From: Victivallales bacterium
Lineage (GTDB): Bacteria; Verrucomicrobiota; Lentisphaeria; Oligosphaerales; Oligosphaeraceae
Length of the DNA: 64,000 nucleotides
Assembly: GCA_017535315.1 (NCBI GenBank)
Contig: JAFXUD010000062.1
Coordinates: 1 to 64,000 of the forward strand
Reading direction: 5' to 3'
The notes under the pieces are model-generated. The model searched no databases and had not been told where the DNA came from. It worked only from the letters and a program-made list of their open reading frames with translations. Numbering within the stretch: the stretch's first letter is position 1; the number at the start of each line of letters is the position of its first letter. A program made the translations under genes and the position numbers. Of this stretch, positions 3,982 through 53,089 are shown piece after piece.

Positions 3982-4170
3982 CAAGTCCCGCGTCGCAAGT
4001 CCCACGTCGCAAGTCCCACGTCGCAAGTCCCACGTCCCAAGTCCCACGTCCCAAGTCCCGCGTCCCAAGTCCCGCGTCGCAAGTCCCGCGTCGCAAGTCC
4101 CGCGTCGCACGTCCCACGTCCCAAGTCCCACGTCGCAAGTCCCACGTCGCAAGTCCCACGTCCCAAGTTT
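3982..4170. repeat. 14-bp minisatellite (CAAGTCCCRCGTCS)n
   Basis: Thirteen consecutive 14-bp units fill 3982-4163 and a 7-base partial follows. Units differ mainly at two positions (A/G at position 9, G/C at position 14), and unit 10 has CACG for CAAG. The array ends directly at the stop codon of the AEC transporter (4170-4172). Open reading frames through it on both strands encode only repeats such as WDLRRGT and are artefacts. Confidence 0.95.
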
Positions 4171-14486: not shown

Positions 14487-14501
14487 GTGCACAGGACAGG
14501 T

Positions 14502-17093
14502 ATGAGCATATTTTCGCGCATATCCCGCCGTTGGGCGGTGGCTTTTGTCGCATTGCTTGTGGTGGTGCTGGCTGTGGTCTTTTGGCCGCGCAAAAAGGCG
14601 GTGCCGCCCGCGCCAGGCGCGAAGCCACAGCCGCCGCCACGGGGGGCGTGCAGCGTGCGCCAGGCGCGAAAGTATGCTGTCGAATTGGCGCGGATGGCCA
14701 GCGAGGAGGAGGGGCGAATCTGGATGCAGGAGGGGCTTCAGTCCAGGCAGGCGGCTTGGCTGATGTCCAAGGCGAGGTACGCTCTCTTCAAAAACGGCTT
14801 CAGCTACAAGGGCGTCGAGAAGAAGGACAATCTGTTGACCGAGGCAGGGCGGAACCTGCTGGAGGACACCTACCTCGCCGTTTTGCGCGGCGCGCACCAA
14901 AGCCGCTTCGGCCTGTCTGAAATCCAGGAGGAGAAGGGGAGTCGTCTGCGGGCATACATCTCCGAAATAGACCAGACGGTGCAGACCTACTCGCTGTCGG
15001 TTCCCGCCATGTACGACCCGAAGGTTCCATGGCCACTGGTGGTTTCCATGCACGGCCATGGCTGGTATGCTCCCTTCCAGGGGCATCCCGCTCCCAACTA
15101 CAGCGGTGTATTCTGCCTTTCGCCGCAAGGGCGCGGCGCCACCGATTACAAAGACCTTGGCGAGGTGGATGTAATGCACACCATCGAGGAGGTGCAGCAC
15201 GACTTTAACATCGACCCCAACCGAATCTATCTGACAGGCTCCTCCATGGGCGGCACGGGAACCTTCCATCTTGCAACCCGATACGCCGACAAGTTCGCCG
15301 CCATCAATCCCATCGTCCCTAATGCCGACAATGAGGCATGGACAAAGTACTGGGGGTGGAACCGTCGCTTCGAGGGGCGCTATGATGCCCTCCGCCAGTG
15401 GCTCCAGGATGACCATACGGCCCGCGCCTTCGTGGAGAATCTGCTGCAGCTCCCCTGCTTCGTGGTGGCGGGTTCTGCTGACTTCGTGGTGCCTCCCGAC
15501 CACTCGCGTAATATGGTGCGGCTGCTTCGCCAGTACAATGCCAATGTCCAGTATAGGGAGTATCCAGGTTGCGGCCATGGCGGCTTCCCAAAGGAGGCCA
15601 TGGCGGATGCGCTGGCGTGGACCTGTGGTTGGGAGCGCAATCCCTATCCCCGCTCCATCTACTGGAAGGCAAATCAGGTGAAATACGGAAAGTGCCACTG
15701 GATTCGCATGGAACAGTTGGAACGTCCCTTGAAAACAGGCGTGATTTCCGCGAGTCTTCTTCAGGATGGCAATTTGGCTGTGCAGCTTTTCAACGTGCAG
15801 GCCTTCTCCTTCCAGCGTCCGAGAAAGCTTTTCCCGAAAACACCCTCCATGGTGGTGACCGTCAATGGTCACCAGGTGCAGTTGAATTCCCTGCCAGACG
15901 ACGAGGAAAGCTGGATTGAGGTGCGCAACGACCCCGACCACGGATGGCAGGATGCACGCCTTCTGCAAAAGGGCGGCTTTCGCAAATGCCGTGGTCTGGA
16001 GGGACCTGTCAACGAAGCTCTTCAGGCTCCCTTTATGGTGGTGGTGGGTTCTTCTTCGTCCGATGCCGAAATCAATGCCGCCTGGATGCGGGAGGCAAAG
16101 GCTTTTGCCGCTGAGTGGAAGCGCCGCAACGGCGCGGAGTGTCTGATGATTCTGGACAGCCAGTGCCGCATTGAGGAGATGCAGAAACGCAACATCATCC
16201 TCTTTGGCGGCGAACGCGACAACTCCGTCAGCGACTTGGTTGCAGGCTCCATGCCGATCGCGGACATCATGTCCAATGTGCCCTCCACGGAAGATGAAGC
16301 AGCTGAGAACTACAGCGAAAGCGGTATCGCAGGTCCTGATGTGGGTTCCATCATCCTTTATCCCAACGTCAATTATGCTCCTGATAAATTGGTGGTCATG
16401 CTCTCCGCAAACTCTCCCGAGGCTGCCTTTCAAATATGGGGGCGCTTCGGAAACTGGTTCAACTGGGGTGTTTTCGACAGCAAGAAATACTTTGACTATG
16501 CGGTGTTTGATTCGCGCAGCGTCTCTCCTGAGACTTATTTGGTTGTCGGCTGGTATGGCACAGACTGGACCGTCGATAACGGCTCCTATTTTCCTGGCAA
16601 TGAGACACTACGCCAAAAGGTTGCTCCACAATGCTATCCGCCCATTGACAAGATTTCAGATGATGGCCTTGACCACATTCTGCTGGCCGAGTTGATGCCG
16701 AAGAAAATCGACCAGATGCGGGGGGCACTGGGCATCGGGCGCGGTTTCTTTGGCGAGGAGCTGAAGGAGCCTGGCAGCCTGGGCATGCGCGCTCCCTGCA
16801 CTGTCGAATATGAAATCGGCGGGCATTTCACCAAGTTCACCACAGGCGTAGCCCTCCTTAATTCCCCCGAGACCAACATGTGCCAGATACGCGAACGCGG
16901 CGAGGCCGTGAAGTTCACCGTTTTTGGCGACAATCGCAAGCTGGGCGAGAAGACCGTCACCTGGAAGAAGCCTGAAGAGACGTTGGAACTCAAGGTGACA
17001 GGCGTGAAGGTGCTGAAACTCGTCGCTGCACCTGCAGGCGGTCCCGCCTGGCTCCACAGTGGCTCCGCCTGGCTCGGCCCCAGGCTGGATTGA
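14502..17093 (+). CDS. Large membrane-anchored alpha/beta hydrolase (prolyl-oligopeptidase/esterase type)
   Basis: An 863-residue protein. A transmembrane anchor or uncleaved signal lies at about 8-27, followed by a proline-rich linker and a helical region. The alpha/beta-hydrolase domain covers about 170-400: WPLVVSMHGHG as the oxyanion strand, GSSMGG with nucleophile Ser near 247, Asp in SADFVVPPDHS, and His in GCGHGGF. The last 450 residues are a second region with strand/helix alternation (VVVGSSSSDAEINAAW, ILFGGERDN) typical of large PVC secreted hydrolases. The ATG at 14502 is preferred over a GTG at 14487 because AGGA lies at proper spacing. Substrate unknown; a peptidase or an acetyl/feruloyl esterase is possible. 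Confidence 0.78.
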   Translation: MSIFSRISRRWAVAFVALLVVVLAVVFWPRKKAVPPAPGAKPQPPPRGACSVRQARKYAVELARMASEEEGRIWMQEGLQSRQAAWLMSKARYALFKNGFSYKGVEKKDNLLTEAGRNLLEDTYLAVLRGAHQSRFGLSEIQEEKGSRLRAYISEIDQTVQTYSLSVPAMYDPKVPWPLVVSMHGHGWYAPFQGHPAPNYSGVFCLSPQGRGATDYKDLGEVDVMHTIEEVQHDFNIDPNRIYLTGSSMGGTGTFHLATRYADKFAAINPIVPNADNEAWTKYWGWNRRFEGRYDALRQWLQDDHTARAFVENLLQLPCFVVAGSADFVVPPDHSRNMVRLLRQYNANVQYREYPGCGHGGFPKEAMADALAWTCGWERNPYPRSIYWKANQVKYGKCHWIRMEQLERPLKTGVISASLLQDGNLAVQLFNVQAFSFQRPRKLFPKTPSMVVTVNGHQVQLNSLPDDEESWIEVRNDPDHGWQDARLLQKGGFRKCRGLEGPVNEALQAPFMVVVGSSSSDAEINAAWMREAKAFAAEWKRRNGAECLMILDSQCRIEEMQKRNIILFGGERDNSVSDLVAGSMPIADIMSNVPSTEDEAAENYSESGIAGPDVGSIILYPNVNYAPDKLVVMLSANSPEAAFQIWGRFGNWFNWGVFDSKKYFDYAVFDSRSVSPETYLVVGWYGTDWTVDNGSYFPGNETLRQKVAPQCYPPIDKISDDGLDHILLAELMPKKIDQMRGALGIGRGFFGEELKEPGSLGMRAPCTVEYEIGGHFTKFTTGVALLNSPETNMCQIRERGEAVKFTVFGDNRKLGEKTVTWKKPEETLELKVTGVKVLKLVAAPAGGPAWLHSGSAWLGPRLD

Positions 17094-17172
17094 TTTTTGT
17101 GGCGGTCATGCACATCGCGTGGACTAGGTTTTTTACAAAAAATGTAATATATATACAAAGAATTGTAAAATT

Positions 17173-17738
17173 ATGTCTTCTAGGGTTGGTCTTCTAGGAT
17201 AGGTCTGCTAGGTCCTCTATGTCTTCTAGGAGTTAAGTCCTCTAGGATAGGTCTTCTAGGGTAAGTCTGCTAGGTCCTCTAAGTTTTCTAGGAGTTAAGT
17301 CTTCTAGGGTAAGTCTGCTAGGTCCTCTAAGTTTTCTAGGAGTTAAGTCTTCTAGGAGTTAAGACCTCTAGGGTAAGTCCTCTAGGTCCTCTAAGTTTTC
17401 TAGGAGTTAAGTCTTCTAGGGTAAGTCCTCTAGGATAGGTTTTCTAGGGTAAGTCTGCTAGGTCCTCTAAGTTTTCTAGGAGTTAAGTCTTCTAGGGTAA
17501 GTCTGCTAGGACCTCTAAGTCTTCTAGGAGTTAAGTCTTCTAGGGTAAGTCCTCTAGGATAGGTCTTCTAGGTCTTCTATGGTAAGTCTTCTAGGAGACT
17601 AATACTCTAGCATAACTTAACGTATAAACCTATAAGACTTACTCCCTAGAAGACTTAGAAGACCTAGCAGACTTACCCTAGAAGACCTAGCAGACTTACC
17701 CTAGAAGACCTAGAAGACCTAACCTAGAAGACCTACCC
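17173..17738. repeat. CTAG-rich compound array with inverted distal block
   Basis: Roughly 35 CTAG tetramers (hand count) lie in about 570 bp, in blocks such as AAGTCTTCTAGGG, AAGTCTGCTAGG and AGTTAAGTCTTCTAGG. A 48-bp higher-order unit recurs (starts near 17283, 17331, 17395, 17471, 17519), with spacing increased by about 14, 16 or 28 bases where sub-blocks are inserted. From about 17632 to 17738 the same words occur in reverse complement (CCTAGCAGACTTACCCTAG). The two halves could therefore pair across a short AT-rich centre (about 17601-17631). No reading frame is credible. It ends immediately upstream of the gltB promoter. Confidence 0.95.
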
Positions 17739-17741
17739 TTG

Positions 17742-17811
17742 TTTTCCATTTTGGCACGTTTTTTGCTAACATCTAATCCGTAAAAAGCTTATTTCACTTC
17801 AAAATGGAAAA
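17742..17811 (+). promoter_or_regulatory. 12-bp inverted repeat framing the gltB promoter and start
   Basis: TTTTCCATTTTG (17742-17753) is the exact reverse complement of CAAAATGGAAAA (17800-17811), 46 bases apart. The left arm overlaps the -24 element of the sigma-54 promoter. The right arm contains the ATGGAAAA ribosome-binding region 7 bases before the gltB ATG. It could be a pair of operator half-sites; only the right arm is inside the predicted transcript. Confidence 0.5.
17751..17767 (+). promoter_or_regulatory. Sigma-54 (RpoN) promoter of gltBD
   Basis: TTGGCACG-TTTT-TTGCT matches the -24/-12 consensus fully, with the diagnostic GG (17753-17754), ten bases, and GC (17765-17766). Transcription would start near 17778, 40 bases before the gltB ATG. 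Sigma-54 control of glutamate synthase is biologically sensible for a nitrogen-assimilation operon. An enhancer-binding activator would be needed, and the CTAG array fills the usual enhancer position. Confidence 0.75.
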
Positions 17812-17817
17812 TAGATT

Positions 17818-20800
17818 ATGGAAGATCAAATCACCTATCGACAGCCAGGTCTTGCATTGCCGCAGGACGAGGGGCTGTACCATTTCAGCAATGAGCACGA
17901 TGCCTGTGGCGTGGGGCTGGTCGCGAACCTGAATGGCAATGCGACGCACGATATTGTCACGCAGGGGCTGACCATATTATGTCGTCTGCTGCACCGTGGT
18001 GCAGCAGGTAGCGATGCGCTTTCAGGCGATGGGGCAGGACTGCTTTGCGTCATCCCGCATGATTTCTTCCAGCGCGAGGTAGGTGGCCTACCCGCTCCAG
18101 GGCACTATGCGTTGGGCATGATGTTCAATGGTGTCGGCCAGGAGGATGCACTGGAGGCGATTGTGCGTGAGGAGGGATGCCAGGTACTGGCATGGCGCGA
18201 GGTGCCGATTGATACAGCGCAACTTGGTGAACAGGCACGCCTGAGTTGTCCTGTCATTCGCCAGATTTTCGTCTCCTCGAGCCAGGGGGAGTGTGACGAC
18301 GCTCTTGAACGCAAGGTATTTGTTCTTCGCAGACGGCTGGAACGCGAGCTGCTGGACGTCTATTTCCCCAGCTTCAGCACGCGGACCGTAGTCTATAAGG
18401 GGCTGATGCTGGCAACGCAAATCGAGGCTTTCTACAAGGATTTGGCGGACGAAACCTTTGCCTCGCCGATAGCGCTGGTTCACCAGCGGTACAGTACCAA
18501 CACTTTTCCAACTTGGAGGCTGGCCCATCCATTCCGTTATCTGGCGCACAACGGCGAAATCAACACCCTGCGCGGCAACCTTAACCATGCACGGACGCGC
18601 GAGCCCTTTCTCCAGAGCGAGCTTATCGGCGATGACCTCCGCAAGGTGCTGCCTTTGATTGACGAGACGCAAAACGATTCGGCCTGCCTGGACAACATGG
18701 CGGAGCTGCTGCTTCTCTCTGGCCGTTGGTTGCCACATGTGATGATGATGCTTATACCTCAGGCGTGGGGCGAAAAGTATCATATCACCAATGACATACG
18801 TGGCTTTTTCGACTATCACTCCACGCTGGTGGAGCCGTGGGATGGTCCTGCCGCCGTCGCCTTCACCGATGGCATAGGATGTGGCGCAATGCTTGACAGA
18901 AACGGACTGCGCCCTGCACGTTACGAACTGACAAAAGACGGCTTGTTTGTGCTGGCCTCGGAGACGGGTGTGCTTGATTTGCCACAAGGCGACATCATAC
19001 GGCGTGGACGCCTGAAGCCAGGGGAGATTCTATGGTGCGACCTACGTGCTCACCGCCTCGTGCTGGATGCGGAACTGAAAAATACCATTGCGCGTCAGTC
19101 CCCTTATCGTCGCTGGTCCCACGAGAACAAGATTCCCGTGGCGGGCATGTTCGACACCATCGCCGCCGCTAAAGTGCCTGACAACCTTAGGGAAAAGCAG
19201 CGGCTGTTTGGCTGGACACAGGAGGACATCGAGCTGCTTGTGCGGCCAATGGTGGAGACGGGCCACGAGCCTGTTGGTTCCATGGGCAACGATGCCGCGC
19301 TGGCAGTCCTTTCGCCACGACCGCAGTTGCTCTTCAACTACTTCAAACAACGCTTCGCTCAGGTTACCAATCCGCCCATCGACTCGATACGGGAGGAGCT
19401 GGTGATGAGCCTGACGACCTACATTGGCAACAGCGGCAACATTCTCTCCGAAGAGGCGCATCGCGCCAGCGTCATCCGCTTGGCGCGCCCCGTGCTCACG
19501 GGTGGGGATTTGGCACGCTTGATGGTCATGGAAAAGCCCCGTGGAAAGGTGCGTACGCTGTCGATAGGCTGGTGGAATGACCTGCTGGAGGCGCTGACGG
19601 AGCTGGAGAAGAGCGCCATCGCCGCCGTGCAGGAGGGTATCGTTATTCTGGTGCTGAGCGACCGCGAGTTGCCAGAGGGTGAATTGCCGATACCCTCCCT
19701 GCTGGCCGTATCTGCCGTCAACCGCGCCTTGACGGCGGCGGGGCTGAGGCCTCCCGTCGGCATCGTCGTGGAGTCGGGCGAGGTGCGGGAGGTCATGCAC
19801 TATGCATTACTTCTGGGGTATGGCGCGACGGTTGTCCATCCGTACCTTGCGTTGGAAACCGTCAGCAGCCTGGCCAAGGACGGAGACGCCGCCAAGGCCA
19901 CTGAAAACTACATTACCGCCGTCGATAAGGGATTGCTCAAATGCATGTCCAAGATGGGTATCGCAACCCTGCGTAGCTATCGTTCCGCGCAGATGTTCGA
20001 GGCAATCGGCTTGGGAGATGAGCTCGTGCGGCGTTTCTTCCCAGGCACGCCATCCGCAGTCGGTGGCATCGGTTTGAAGGAGATTGCGGCGGAGGTGCGC
20101 GAACGCTGCGAAAAGGCGTGCGCATGTGGCGAATCCACCCCGCTTCCTGTTGGGGGCAACTATCGCTGGCGCAATGTCGGCGAGCCACATCTGGTGACGC
20201 CGCTCTCGGTGTGCGCCTTGCACCGTGCTGTGCGAGAGAACGATGTCGAGCAGTATCGCGCGTTCGCCAAAGTCATCAACGAGCCGACGCAGCCAATCCG
20301 CCTGCGCGATTTGCTGCGTTTCCGCCAATCGTCGCAGTCGATTTCAGTGGAGGAAGTTGAACCCGTCGAGAGCCTGCTGCACCATTTTGTCGGTGGTGCG
20401 ATGAGCCTGGGTGCATTAAGTCCCGAAGCGCATGAGGCGATTGCGGTGGCGATGAACCGCATCGGATGCCTGAGCAATTCGGGCGAAGGTGGCGAGGGGC
20501 CTGAGCGCGACCAGCCGAATGCGGCGGGCGAGTGCCGAGCCAGCGGTATCCGCCAGGTGGCATCGGGACGCTTTGGCGTGACCATCAGCTATCTGGCGCA
20601 CGCCAAGGATTTGCAGATTAAGATGGCGCAGGGGGCCAAACCAGGCGAGGGTGGCCAGCTACCAGGCGACAAGGTCAACGAGGAGATTGCGCGTACACGT
20701 CATTCGACCCCGAAGGTTACGCTGATTTCGCCTCCGCCCCATCATGACATCTACTCCATTGAGGACCTGGCCCAACTGATTCACGACCTTCGTGCAGCCA

Positions 20801-22242
20801 ATGACAAGGCGCGGATTTCCGTGAAGCTCGTCTCCGAAAGCGGGGTTGGGACAGTGGCGGCGGGCGTTGCCAAGGCACACGCCGATGTGGTGGTCATCTC
20901 TGGTCACGACGGTGGTACGGGCGCTGCGCCGCTCAGTTCCATCAAGCACACGGGGATGCCTTGGGAAATTGGCCTGGCCGAGGCACATCAAACGCTTGTC
21001 AAGAACAACTTGCGTGGCAAGGTCAAACTGCAGGTCGATGGGCAGCTTCGCACTGGGCGCGACATCGTCATCGCGGCGCTGCTTGGTGCCGAGGAGTTCG
21101 GCTTCGCGACCTCGCTGTTGCTTTCACTGGGGTGCCTGATGCTGCGCCAGTGCCAGGACAACACCTGCCCCGCTGGCATCACAACCCAGAACCCAGAAAT
21201 ACGCAAACGCTTCAAGGGCAAGCCAGAGCATATCATCAACTATCTGCGTTTCATCGCCGAAGAGGCGCGTTGCATATTGGCTACACTTGGGCTGCACTCT
21301 TTGGATGAAGCCGTCGGGCGGGCAGACCTTCTGGAGATCAACCCGCAGCTGGCGGTGGGCAAGGCCGCGACGCTGGACTTCGCGGCTATGCTTCACCGCG
21401 TGGAGGGGGAGGTTGTCCGCTGGCAGGGAGAACACTATACGCAAAGCACGCTGGATGACAGGGAACTGATGCCAAAACTTGGCAAGGCTCTTAAGAGTTT
21501 TAAGGCTGTTACCGTCAGTCTGCCGATTAAAAACTCGGAAAGGTCGGTTGGAACGCGCCTCTCCAGCTATCTGACACTGACCAAAGGCGAGACGGGACTG
21601 CCTGACGACACCTGGCACTTCGATTTTCAAGGTGTTGCGGGACAGAGTTTTGGTGCCTTCTTGGCTCCAGGCATCACCTTCCGTTTGGAGGGCGAGGCGA
21701 ACGACTATGTCGCAAAGGGCATTTCGGGCGGCAAGATCATCATCGTGCCCGACCGACAAGCTACCTGTATGGCAGATGAAAACGTCATCGCAGGAAACGT
21801 CATCGGCTATGGCGGAACCTCAGGTGAAATCTATATCAACGGCCAGGCTGGCGAACGCTTTGCCATCCGCAATAGCGGTTTCAAGGCCGTGGTGGAGGGC
21901 GTGGGCGACCATGGTTGCGAATACATGACGGGCGGGCGCGTGGTCGTGTTGGGCAAGACAGGCGTGAACTTCGCCGCAGGAATGACGGGAGGCATAGCAT
22001 ACGTCCTGGACGGCGACGGCGACTTCGACATGTACTGCAACCTTGACACCGTGGACCTTGAATCCGTCCGTGCGGGAACGCGCGAGGAACGCGAACTGCT
22101 GGAACTGCTGGAACGCCATGCATCCGCCACGGGCAGTGCCAAGGCGCAGCGCATTCTGCAGAACTGGGACGACTACCGCGGGCGCTTCGTCTGTGTCATG
22201 CCTGTCGAATACAAGAGAATTATACGGAGTGAACAACAATGA
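17818..22242 (+). CDS. gltB: Glutamate synthase (NADPH) large subunit
   Basis: A 1474-residue GOGAT alpha subunit of normal length. Domain order: class II glutamine amidotransferase with catalytic Cys30 in DACGVG after a 29-residue propeptide; central linker domain; FMN-binding synthase barrel with GHDGGTGAAPLSS; 3Fe-4S cysteines in CLMLRQCQDNTCPAG; and the C-terminal GXGXG beta-helix. It transfers the glutamine amide to 2-oxoglutarate in the cytoplasm. The ATG follows TGGAAAATAGATT. The last codons overlap the gltD start by four bases (ATGA), so the subunits are coupled. Sigma-54 promoter upstream. Confidence 0.97.
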   Translation: MEDQITYRQPGLALPQDEGLYHFSNEHDACGVGLVANLNGNATHDIVTQGLTILCRLLHRGAAGSDALSGDGAGLLCVIPHDFFQREVGGLPAPGHYALGMMFNGVGQEDALEAIVREEGCQVLAWREVPIDTAQLGEQARLSCPVIRQIFVSSSQGECDDALERKVFVLRRRLERELLDVYFPSFSTRTVVYKGLMLATQIEAFYKDLADETFASPIALVHQRYSTNTFPTWRLAHPFRYLAHNGEINTLRGNLNHARTREPFLQSELIGDDLRKVLPLIDETQNDSACLDNMAELLLLSGRWLPHVMMMLIPQAWGEKYHITNDIRGFFDYHSTLVEPWDGPAAVAFTDGIGCGAMLDRNGLRPARYELTKDGLFVLASETGVLDLPQGDIIRRGRLKPGEILWCDLRAHRLVLDAELKNTIARQSPYRRWSHENKIPVAGMFDTIAAAKVPDNLREKQRLFGWTQEDIELLVRPMVETGHEPVGSMGNDAALAVLSPRPQLLFNYFKQRFAQVTNPPIDSIREELVMSLTTYIGNSGNILSEEAHRASVIRLARPVLTGGDLARLMVMEKPRGKVRTLSIGWWNDLLEALTELEKSAIAAVQEGIVILVLSDRELPEGELPIPSLLAVSAVNRALTAAGLRPPVGIVVESGEVREVMHYALLLGYGATVVHPYLALETVSSLAKDGDAAKATENYITAVDKGLLKCMSKMGIATLRSYRSAQMFEAIGLGDELVRRFFPGTPSAVGGIGLKEIAAEVRERCEKACACGESTPLPVGGNYRWRNVGEPHLVTPLSVCALHRAVRENDVEQYRAFAKVINEPTQPIRLRDLLRFRQSSQSISVEEVEPVESLLHHFVGGAMSLGALSPEAHEAIAVAMNRIGCLSNSGEGGEGPERDQPNAAGECRASGIRQVASGRFGVTISYLAHAKDLQIKMAQGAKPGEGGQLPGDKVNEEIARTRHSTPKVTLISPPPHHDIYSIEDLAQLIHDLRAANDKARISVKLVSESGVGTVAAGVAKAHADVVVISGHDGGTGAAPLSSIKHTGMPWEIGLAEAHQTLVKNNLRGKVKLQVDGQLRTGRDIVIAALLGAEEFGFATSLLLSLGCLMLRQCQDNTCPAGITTQNPEIRKRFKGKPEHIINYLRFIAEEARCILATLGLHSLDEAVGRADLLEINPQLAVGKAATLDFAAMLHRVEGEVVRWQGEHYTQSTLDDRELMPKLGKALKSFKAVTVSLPIKNSERSVGTRLSSYLTLTKGETGLPDDTWHFDFQGVAGQSFGAFLAPGITFRLEGEANDYVAKGISGGKIIIVPDRQATCMADENVIAGNVIGYGGTSGEIYINGQAGERFAIRNSGFKAVVEGVGDHGCEYMTGGRVVVLGKTGVNFAAGMTGGIAYVLDGDGDFDMYCNLDTVDLESVRAGTREERELLELLERHASATGSAKAQRILQNWDDYRGRFVCVMPVEYKRIIRSEQQ

Positions 22243-23594
22243 GCAGAACATTTATAGATATTTCCAGGCTGGAGCACGTCTATCGGCCAATCGGCGAGCG
22301 GATTCAGGACACGTTGGAGGTGGAGGCGCCTTTGGAGAGCGACGAGGTGCGACAACTGGCCTCCCGTTGCCAGAATTGCGGACTGCCCTACTGCCATACA
22401 ATGGGGTGCCCGTTGCAGAACGCCATCCCCGACATCAACCGCGCCGTCATGCAGGGAAACTGGCGCGATGCATGGGAACGCCTTGCCGAAACCAGTCCGT
22501 TCCCCGAGTTCACCAGCCGTATCTGCCCCGCATTGTGCGAGGCCTCCTGCTGTCTGGAGGGGGAGGGCTTCGGCGCCACAAATGTCCGCCAGATTGAAAA
22601 GAAAATCGTTGATACCGCCTTTGCAAATGGATGGGTTGTGCCGCAGAAGCCATTGCGCCGTAACGGGAAAAGTGTGGCGGTCATAGGTGGCGGGCCATCG
22701 GGGCTGGCGGCAGCCGCCAAGCTGAATGCAAGTGGGTGGAAAGTTGCCGTCTTTGACCGTAATGAGCAGCCTGGCGGACTGCTTCGCTATGGCATCCCGT
22801 GCTTCAAGCTCGATAAGGCCCTTGTCGAACGGCGCTGGAGGCTGATGGAGGAGGCTGGCGTTGAGTTTCACGGCAAGACCGAGGTGGGCAAGGACGTTTC
22901 AGGCGGATACCTGCTGAAGCATTTTGATGCCGTCGTCGTGGCATTGGGAACCCCTGTGCCGCGTGATTTGAAGGTGCCTGGACGCGAACTCGGCGGCATC
23001 GTGCAGGCTTTGGAGCTGCTTGGCGGACAGAACCGCATGAACACAGGCGAAGCAACGGAGACAACTGTGTCAGGTTGCGGGAAGAAGGTGCTGATTATCG
23101 GTGGCGGCGACACGGGAAATGACTGCGGCGGCACCGTCATACGGCAGGGGGCAGCCTCCGTGATGTCCATTGATTTGATGCCGAAGCCGCCGTTGGAACG
23201 TTCTGTTCATACGCCGTGGCCGATGTGGCCCTACAAGTTGCGTGGCTCCTCCTCCGTCGATGAGGGCTTGCAACGCTTCTGGTCTCTGAACACACTGCGC
23301 TTCTTGGGGGAAAAAGGGCAGGTTACGGGGGTGGAGGTCGTGCCAGTCAAATGGGAATTCGCGGAAAACGGCAAACCTGCCAAATTCGCTGTCTCTGGGC
23401 CCTCCCGCATAATCCCATGCGACCTGGTGGTGTTGGCCATGGGCTTCCTACGCCAGAAGCGTGAGGAGATTCTCGCGGGCTTGGGCTTGCCCGACCAGGA
23501 GAATGTGTTGCTTGTGGGCGATGCGGCCAACGGTCCCTCGCTTGTCGTGCGTGCCATCGCCGATGGCCTAAAGTGCGCAACGCAATTGGCGTAA
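22239..23594 (+). CDS. gltD: Glutamate synthase small subunit
   Basis: A 451-residue GOGAT beta subunit. The N-terminal Fe-S ferredoxin-like region carries cysteines in CQNCGLPYCHTMGCPLQN and CPALCEASC. The FAD-binding motif is VIGGGPSGLAAA, the NADPH-binding motif is IIGGGDTGNDCGG, and the C-terminal LVGDAANGPSLVVRAI completes the FAD site. It feeds electrons from NADPH to GltB. It overlaps gltB by four bases and is followed by a UUCG-loop terminator, so gltBD is a closed two-gene operon. Confidence 0.97.
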   Translation: MSRTFIDISRLEHVYRPIGERIQDTLEVEAPLESDEVRQLASRCQNCGLPYCHTMGCPLQNAIPDINRAVMQGNWRDAWERLAETSPFPEFTSRICPALCEASCCLEGEGFGATNVRQIEKKIVDTAFANGWVVPQKPLRRNGKSVAVIGGGPSGLAAAAKLNASGWKVAVFDRNEQPGGLLRYGIPCFKLDKALVERRWRLMEEAGVEFHGKTEVGKDVSGGYLLKHFDAVVVALGTPVPRDLKVPGRELGGIVQALELLGGQNRMNTGEATETTVSGCGKKVLIIGGGDTGNDCGGTVIRQGAASVMSIDLMPKPPLERSVHTPWPMWPYKLRGSSSVDEGLQRFWSLNTLRFLGEKGQVTGVEVVPVKWEFAENGKPAKFAVSGPSRIIPCDLVVLAMGFLRQKREEILAGLGLPDQENVLLVGDAANGPSLVVRAIADGLKCATQLA

Positions 23595-23658: not shown

Positions 23659-23745
23659 TAGGGACGGGAGAGACGGGAGAGACAGCGCAATTGCGTTAGG
23701 TACTCCGCTCTGTCGCTCCCGTCGCTCCCGTCGCTCAAGTCCCTT
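23659..23745 (-). repeat. GACGGGAG/AGTACCT hairpin element, copy 1 (reverse orientation)
   Basis: Arms of tandem GACGGGAGA words and GTCGCTCCC words surround AGGTACT (23698-23704), the reverse complement of the AGTACCT centre seen in three other copies (38281, 51986, 59629). The right arm runs directly into the 65-bp tandem array. Confidence 0.75.
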
Positions 23746-24120
23746 GAAAATCCTCTTCTATTTTCGTGCCCTCCTCGTCGCTCCCGTCTCTCCCGTCGCT
23801 CAAGTCCCTTGAAAATCCTCTTCTATTTCCGTGCCCTCCTCGTCGCTCCCGTCTCTCCCGTCGCTCAAGTCCCTTGGAAATCCTCTTCTTTGTCCGTGCC
23901 CTCCTCGTCGCTCCTGTCTCTCCCGTCGCTCAAGTCCCTTGGAAATCCTCTTCTTTGTCCGTGCCCTCCTCGTCGCTCCTGTCTCTCCCGTCGCTCAAGT
24001 CCCTTGAAAATCCTCTTCTATTTCCGTGCCCTCCTCGTCGCTCCCGTCTCTCCCGTCGCTCAAGTCCCTTGAAAATCCTCTTCTATTTCCGTCTCTCCCG
24101 TCGCTCAAGTCCCTTTGAAA
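23716..24120. repeat. 65-bp tandem array
   Basis: CAAGTCCCTT recurs at 23736, 23801, 23866, 23931, 23996 and 24061 at exact 65-base spacing, then at 24106 after 45 bases because 20 bases are missing. Each unit contains GTCGCTCCCGTCTCTCCC, TGAAAATCCTCTTCT and CGTGCCCTCCTC. The arm words are those of the adjacent hairpin element. Long frames through it (VAPVSPVAQVP repeats) are artefacts. Unit length equals neither spacer nor repeat length expected of CRISPR. Confidence 0.95.
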
Positions 24121-37555: not shown

Positions 37556-37660
37556 AATTAGCAATTAGCAATTGACAATTGGAGTTATTAACCTATGGAG
37601 AACAGCATTCACTCCTTTTTGCTGCTCAATTGCTCAATTGCTAATTGCTAATTGCTAATT
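37556..37660. repeat. AATTAGC-heptad element, copy 2
   Basis: About 105 bp: AATTAGCAATTAGCAATT at the left end, GCTAATTGCTAATT at the right end, and GAACAGCATTCACTCC inside. The inner word recurs in reverse complement in the 43809-43906 copy (GAAGTGAATGCTGTTC). The ends are inverted repeats of the heptad AGCAATT. Confidence 0.8.
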
Positions 37661-41832: not shown

Positions 41833-42128
41833 TGTGTTCTTCTCCCCAAAAAAACGTATGGATGAATTAGAATGTTTTTTTGAATATATGCCAGATTACA
41901 CCCTTTTCCAGTAGAAAACGGGAAAAATCCACACTTTTCCGCTATGCTCTGTTCCCCAAGAAAGTAGTTTGCGGAGGCCGCGAAGCGGCAGCGCACGTAA
42001 GTGCGCGACCATGCGTAACCACTGGCAAGCGCCCGAAAGGGCGCATAGTCTGTAGAGGGCTTGCACCACAAGAAACTGCGCCAGTCTTGGGCGCAACAAA
42101 AGGGAATTATGTACTTTAGTTGCCGATT
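41833..42128. other. Gap upstream of the 1153-residue gene: hairpin-rich, no gene
   Basis: It contains GCGCACGTAAGTGCGC and GCGCCCGAAAGGGCGC hairpins and GCCGCGAAGCGGC, all of the same style as the CCGTGGG family but not the same order. The minus-strand frame through it is low complexity and belongs to repeats. No promoter is clear. Confidence 0.6.
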
Positions 42129-42539
42129 AGACTTCACCAACAGAGAAGAGCCGCGACAGCGGCGGCAGGAACATAGCCGTGGGTGAAGCGAAGCCGCGTA
42201 GCAGGAACATAGCCGTGGCAGGAGCGAAGCCGCGTAAGCGGCGGTAAGAGTATAGCCGTGGGTGAAGCGAAGCCGCGACAGCGGCGAAGCGAAACCCACG
42301 GTCAGAGGACTACCCCGACCCTGTGCGCCGTGCCGCGTAGCGCAGCGAAGCGGCAAGGCGTATCTTGGCCATTTGACTTCACCAACAAAGAAGAGCCGCG
42401 ACAGCGGCATCAGGAACATAGCCGTGGGTGAAGCGAAGCCGCGACAGCGGCGAAGCGAAACCCACGGTCAGAGGACTACCCCGACCCTGTGCGCCGTGCC
42501 GCGTAGCGCAGCGAAGCGGCAAGGCGCATCTTGGCCATC
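42129..42539. repeat. CCGTGGG-type multi-hairpin repeat, duplicated block
   Basis: Block 1 (42129-42374) and block 2 (42375-42539) both begin GACTTCACCAACA and share a nearly identical segment of about 115 bases at the end (one C/T difference seen). The segment contains CCGTGGGT with ACCCACGG, an inner GCCGC-GACA-GCGGC hairpin, the linker GACTACCCC, and GCGCCGTGCCGC with GCGGCAAGGCGC. Block 1 holds an 81-base internal expansion of the left hairpin. Confidence 0.9.
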
Positions 42540-42643
42540 GACCAGTGAGGGATAATGTCATCAGGAAACTCAAGTAAATAATTCCCCAACAAAAACATTG
42601 CCGTTACCTACCCTCGTGAGGAACATAGCTGGGGAACATAGCG

Positions 42644-43808: not shown

Positions 43809-43906
43809 AATTAGCAATTAGTAATTAGCAATTTAGCAGGAAAAAAGAAGTGAATGCTGTTCACCATATGTGAATAGTTCTAATTGCTAATTGCTAATTG
43901 CTAATT
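43809..43906. repeat. AATTAGC-heptad element, copy 3
   Basis: About 98 bp: AATTAGCAATTAGTAATT at the left end, CTAATTGCTAATTGCTAATT at the right end, and GAAGTGAATGCTGTTC inside in the opposite orientation to copy 2. It follows the lipoprotein stop by about ten bases and may end its transcript. Confidence 0.8.
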
Positions 43907-53064: not shown

Positions 53065-53089
53065 GTCTGCTAGCGTGGCACTAGCAGAC
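53065..53089. other. 9-bp hairpin GTCTGCTAG/CTAGCAGAC between serA and dus
   Basis: A perfect stem (53065-53073 with 53081-53089) with a 7-base loop. The nine-base word GTCTGCTAG is the same as in the 17.2-17.7 kb array. No T-run on the minus strand, so it may be a weak terminator of serA or a repeat remnant. Confidence 0.5.

Follow-up and report, generated by a model that had tools for sequence, protein, structure and literature searches.

Analysis of a 64,000-nucleotide stretch of DNA from a Victivallales bacterium (the window) indicated that the CTAG-rich repeat upstream of the glutamate synthase genes gltBD is, with a probability of roughly 0.8, a dispersed minisatellite derived from the interior of a MITE, which would have expanded between the gltBD enhancer and promoter and would act there mostly as a passive spacer. 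The array belongs to a family of intergenic repeats, it is homologous to the interior of intact MITEs, the family carries terminal inverted repeats (TIRs) and target duplications, and the array lies between two conserved motifs of the gltB upstream region. Features of the locus are collected in the table.

Counting exact GTCNNCTAG cores for its bounds, the array extends over 17,175-17,739. The original prediction had described a CTAG-rich compound minisatellite with about 35 CTAG tetranucleotides at 17173-17738, and both coordinates and count were right: this interval holds 35, equal to 62/kb, versus 0.65/kb elsewhere in the window. Outside the array, the window has 41 CTAG where its trinucleotides predict 81.5 (O/E 0.50), and seven 20-kb control stretches of the same genome gave O/E values of 0.42-0.88; CTAG is thus moderately depleted genome-wide, which upholds the depletion that had been claimed but not an extreme rarity. 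TRF detected periods of 14, 48 (82% matches), 124, and 188 bp (93%), and the 48-bp higher-order unit proposed earlier therefore exists as merely one among several registers. Altogether 29 GTCNNCTAG cores were found, 21 on the plus strand followed by eight on the minus strand, and the forward and inverted arms pair over 61 nt with 89-90% complementarity. Folded as a single strand, the array reaches -130 kcal/mol (z -11 versus shuffles), and both the inverted end and the folding potential noticed at first sight are thereby borne out. The inverted arm probably represents either a further element or a segment that was inverted. At the gltB array itself neither a significant TIR nor a target duplication was detectable, and a presumed TIR relic in mid-array (AACTTAACGTATA, 17614-17626) was dropped at p=0.54. 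The 14-18-bp words are contiguous and lack the unique spacers of a CRISPR. Nothing in the window reached the gathering score of an Rfam family, and a known RNA was rejected; the only matches were sub-threshold miRNA ones, which probably stem from the inverted repeat.

Table. Features of the gltB region and a related element in the window
Feature	Position	Strand	Basis or remark
Esterase-like protein, 868 aa, PHB-depolymerase-type esterase domain	14487..17093	+	ORF; TIGR01840 E=2.6e-10, below cut-off
Candidate enhancer (UAS) palindrome TTACAAAAAATGTAA	17133..17147		Outside array; TTACAWWWWWTGTAA match
Second, imperfect palindrome TACAAAGAATTGTA	17154-17167		
Minisatellite forward arm	17175..17595	+	14-18-bp words GTCYNCTAGG...; higher-order periods 48/124/188
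Spacer separating oppositely oriented arms	17596..17628		Best TIR match p=0.54, not significant
Minisatellite inverted arm	17629..17739	-	Eight exact cores from 17646; 23-bp period (TRF)
Sigma-54 promoter TTGGCACGTTTTTTGCT, TTGGCAC-N5-TTGCT	17751..17767	+	-24 GG at 17753-17754
gltB, glutamate synthase large subunit	17818..22242	+	NF008730, 1624 bits
gltD, glutamate synthase small subunit	22239..23594	+	ORF; assigned by position and translation
TIR-family member, GC-rich interior	42102..42586		Exact 8-bp target duplication CAACAAAA

Used as a query against its own genome (4.9 Mb in 96 contigs), the array produced 83 alignments, which correspond to about 27 separate arrays. According to a simple ORF model all of them are intergenic and none lies in a gene, the single listed ORF overlap, at 53,065, being two cores paired by chance. 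Some 10 of the 27 abut a contig end, as expected because repeats break short-read assemblies, and for this reason the array lengths recorded at such ends are unreliable. Within a set of 41 genomes including the source, all three members of the genus carried the CTAG repeat and the 38 other relatives lacked it, and a scan of about 85,000 species recovered it only in the goat-rumen MAG Victivallales bacterium RGIG3631 (JAFTAC), a match that assigns the host to Lentisphaerota. Exact scans of IMG/VR with the repeat and with the TIR yielded no match, and viral spread was rejected on that ground. The original prediction had named free variation of presence and length among close relatives as evidence against it, and for the family such variation is largely seen: the array of about 180 bp at L010:4832-5009 corresponds in a sister species (G001) to an orthologous gap of about 33 bp in which two array-like words remain. 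Head-to-head pairs of arrays recur (in the window and at L009, L011, and L017), and the L011 pair encloses a tRNA gene and has TIRs beside both of its arms, a sign that inverted halves may often be separate, second elements. Near the approximately 26 other arrays we detected one weak sigma-54-like match only, with a good promoter at the gltB array alone, and no promoter type is common to the arrays of the family. Because the repeat is dispersed, a gltBD-specific activator array was rejected, and a decoy specific to gltBD is not supported either.

Words enriched at the array flanks converged on a 23-bp motif, GGGAATTATRTACTTNAGTTNCC, which we read as a TIR. It has 215 matches at up to three mismatches in the genome, versus none for the reversed control, and bounds three types of short element, namely a CTAG type of about 143 bp, a GC-rich hairpin of about 240 bp, and a type of 85-104 bp. 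Elements of the TIR family measure 85-485 bp, and about 100 copies were estimated from TIR counts. The TIR itself is present in eight of the 41 genomes, all belonging to one family and including genera without the CTAG repeat. In 34 elements with paired ends the target duplication was determined as 8 bp (identity 0.70 versus 0.40 in unpaired flanks, falling on either side), these elements being mostly of the GC type, and in CTAG-type copies the duplications seem to have decayed. Members of the family are short, intergenic, present in many copies, and devoid of a transposase of their own, as is characteristic of MITEs, and the intact CTAG-type copies have tandem direct repeats as their interior. 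Transposases of IS1595 and IS256 were absent from the genomes searched, and an autonomous partner in these two IS families was rejected. TIR copies with variant TATGTAATTCCC ends occur in two genomes of another genus of the same family (29 in G004 and 15 in G021), which are likely the place where an autonomous transposon could be sought. The GC-rich element of the window contains an internal 36-bp tandem duplication.

Intact CTAG-type MITEs were found in G000, G001, and G002 (L031, L084, L085, L087, L091, and L092), and their interiors, although from three species, align mutually in one register. These interiors match the array of the window at 77-85% identity over 65-91 bp (E 1e-14 to 1e-19), the forward arm aligning with an intact interior at 82% identity over 87 bp (E=1e-19). 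A correctly oriented TIR was observed at 25 of 76 array flanks, and a wrong-way one at four, of which those that were checked were mostly neighboring GC-type elements; the corresponding score was reached by 0.3% of random 75-mers and by none of 21 other, non-CTAG tandem arrays. Counted by array, 18 of 44 have a TIR and 26 lack it, the gltB array included, and since its own TIR and target duplication went undetected we infer its origin by transposition from its siblings. A MITE with 23-bp TIRs and 8-bp target duplications would thus have given rise to a dispersed minisatellite family by tandem expansion of its interior, the expansion presumably following the insertion. Many stages are visible in the three sister species, comprising intact short elements, expanded ones, and arrays without ends. 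The opposite order, in which recombination or slippage spread a pre-existing minisatellite and some of its copies were captured between TIRs later, could account for the 26 arrays without a TIR and for the perfect 14-mer arrays that exist without ends. However, the intact MITEs of the three species share a fixed, non-perfect interior of about 95 bp in the same register, which disfavors multiple capture because capture from many arrays would not yield one fixed interior, and TIR decay is known in such MITEs (four of 19 BrickBuilt copies are intact; PMC4596501). We regard this order of events as unlikely.

Turning to the gltB locus, the sigma-54 promoter that had been proposed behind the array is real: it lies some 13 bp past the end of the array, and the pattern TTGGCAY-N5-YTGC is conserved upstream of gltB in nine of nine genomes examined. 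Orthologs of gltB occur in most of the 41 relatives, the 31 genomes with a match including partial homologs. The gltB upstream regions of G024, G011, G012, and G007, all four of which were read fully, lack the CTAG array and retain an intact sigma-54 promoter, a further point against an activator array or decoy specific to gltBD. GTCCC-rich runs resembling the GTC/GTCCC-themed arrays of the window were seen upstream of gltB in G011 and G012. The array does occupy the zone in which enhancer sites had been anticipated, but the palindrome that is conserved and enhancer-like, at 17,133-17,147, is not part of it. The motif TTACAWWWWWTGTAA has three sites in the 4.9-Mb genome and none in the control: the one at gltB, one at glutamine synthetase III (L148:1501-1515), and one in a divergent pair (L149:1501-1515), where it separates a group encoding a GXGXG protein and glutamate dehydrogenase from the gene of a GAF-type sigma-54 activator. 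Every gene or group flanking these sites has a sigma-54 promoter, and because three of three sites adjoin sigma-54 promoters of nitrogen genes, strong circumstantial evidence from sequence supports the prediction that a nitrogen activator has its enhancer at TTACAWWWWWTGTAA. The GAF-type activator beside the L149 site is probably the regulator, and the predicted small nitrogen regulon of this uncultured rumen lineage would comprise gltBD, glutamine synthetase III, gdh, and the GAF-type activator. The predicted site, TTACA-N5-TGTAA, is presumably not an NtrC site. The palindrome is kept at gltB of G024, G012, and G003, and in the sister species G001, where the ortholog of the esterase gene is 89% identical, two palindromes follow that gene with comparable spacing. 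Two G001 contigs, C350 at its start and C203 at its end, break within the gltB upstream region, and the esterase-side contig does so after an unrelated G-rich stretch (CCCGCTGGTGGGGGGCTACGGGCC); these breaks indicate that some repeat probably resides there too.

The distance between enhancer and promoter, measured by coordinates from the palindrome center to the -24 element, is 613 bp at gltB of the window, because the array sits between palindrome and promoter. It amounts to 96 bp at glutamine synthetase III, 72 and 110 bp at the divergent pair, and 158 (G024), 51-82 (G012), and 122-152 bp (G003) at gltB of the relatives, compared with which the spacing in the window is about 500 bases greater. 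In this lineage, MITE-derived repeat DNA would have come between the TTACA-N5-TGTAA enhancer and the gltBD sigma-54 promoter and would have increased the distance of the enhancer from the -24 element, upstream of which it lies, from about 50-160 bp to about 613 bp. Activators of sigma-54 act via DNA looping and tolerate spacings from 70 bp up to 1000 bp or more (PMC7408454). Given that such loops allow 1000 bp or more, a tolerated insertion followed by expansion is the simplest reading, and the array is most likely an inert spacer tolerated by sigma-54 looping that leaves gltBD regulation roughly preserved, provided that the activator binds the palindrome and that the change of spacing would have been nearly neutral. 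The locus is thus a natural example of a conserved sigma-54 enhancer and promoter whose distance repeat DNA has stretched several-fold, with unstretched orthologs available for comparison.

A point against a passive role is that the array fills the interval between enhancer and promoter almost exactly, which a selected function would fit too. The array might accordingly be a length-variable or bent spacer in which repeat number alters loop distance, helical phase, or cruciform formation and thereby tunes or phase-varies nitrogen assimilation; besides its position exactly between the UAS and the -24 element, the 14-bp words able to shift loop length and helical phase, the array lengths that differ between sister species, and the strong folding potential are in line with such a role. 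For loops of about 600 bp, effects of phase and length are expected to be weak. Moreover, about 26 other loci carry such arrays without strong sigma-54 promoters, and spacings up to 1000 bp or more are reported to reduce activation little (PMC7408454); a functional spacer is therefore considered unlikely. A length-dependent tuning of gltB by the array is possible, and a co-opted mutable spacer, in which changes in repeat number would cause cell-to-cell variation in glutamate synthase expression, is improbable.

Less plausible still is a binding array for a CTAG-recognizing protein (an activator, a decoy, or a nucleoid protein) acting genome-wide. The dozens of near-identical words per locus, their confinement to intergenic regions, and the CTAG-depleted genome would be consistent with it, but the arrays share no promoter type, they occur on both strands and in all gene orientations with a mixed relation to the neighboring genes, the number of words per locus ranges from 2 to 29, and the TIR association indicates a mobile element. 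Nor does the array resemble a sigma-54 UAS array, as the palindrome lies outside it and strong sigma-54 promoters are missing at the other arrays, and an activator array is unlikely. An assembly artifact of the metagenome bin, which the arrays touching contig ends could call to mind, is highly improbable because the gltB array touches neither end of its 210-kb contig and the family recurs in two independently assembled relatives as well as in the public record of RGIG3631.

Among the known systems, BrickBuilt of Porphyromonas gingivalis, a minisatellite contained in a MITE of which four of 19 copies have both ends and one consists of internal repeats only (PMC4596501), appears by analogy to be the best precedent for the CTAG family. 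Both are multi-copy and strictly intergenic, include many copies without intact TIRs, and have TIRs common to elements with other interiors. BrickBuilt differs in its 23-nt bricks of unrelated sequence, whereas the CTAG family has 14-18-nt words, 23-bp TIRs, and 8-bp target duplications, resides in a Lentisphaerota host, and has its gltB copy between a sigma-54 enhancer and promoter. BOX of Streptococcus pneumoniae has a variable number of tandem boxB units (PMC3049150). Like the CTAG family it is a small mobile repeat the length of which varies among genomes, and it can affect neighboring expression; its boxA/B/C modules are unrelated in sequence to the CTAG words. To our knowledge, no long arrays lacking ends have been described for BOX. 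In the foldback transposon Tetris of Drosophila virilis, internal tandem repeats seeded longer satellite arrays (PMC4079207), and here too a satellite grew from within a non-autonomous DNA transposon, although Tetris is eukaryotic and has units of about 220 bp in kilobase arrays within heterochromatin. The long-range sigma-54 enhancers of glnALG bound by NtrC resemble gltB in that an enhancer-bound activator reaches the promoter by looping (PMC7408454), and differ in that the distance at gltB was enlarged by repeat DNA. The literature search turned up nothing on repeats of this kind in Victivallales; MITE-minisatellites as a kind are known, and within the literature searched this family and its enhancer-splitting position appear to be new, adding a Lentisphaerota family to the few bacterial MITE-minisatellites described.

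Several other repeats were observed in this genome. Tandem arrays with a GTC/GTCCC theme and units of 14, 28, and 65 bp are located in the window at 1-120, 3982-4168, and 23712-24106, the last directly downstream of gltD; they show no association with a TIR. Arrays of 9-mers of the ATCTAGTAA/TCTAGATTG type were found at L019:5194-5285, L012:2825-2868, L025:4397-4447, and L038:5118-5163; they are similar to the interior of the third, short type of element and possibly reflect a second interior expansion, and no TIR was found at them. The 7-mer arrays of AATTAGC and AGTGGTT, the 9-mer GTCGCTCCC arrays, and the GTCCC 14-mer arrays also had no TIR, and for this reason we treat them as a separate phenomenon. 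At L009:4976-6427 (contig C50) a four-helix-bundle/23S-rRNA-IVP-like gene (TIGR02436) is positioned between head-to-head CTAG arrays, and the second such gene (C9:91561) adjoins a CTAACCCC-type repeat; a general link between IVP genes and CTAG arrays was rejected, the genome having only two IVP genes. The heptamer arrays, AATTAGC/CTAATTG and AGTGGTT/TAACCAC, are unrelated to the CTAG family and are present in the window at 37623-37660 and 43880-43906 as well as in L010, L020, L021, L024, L028, L035, and L041, and they are reminiscent of the heptamer repeats of cyanobacteria.
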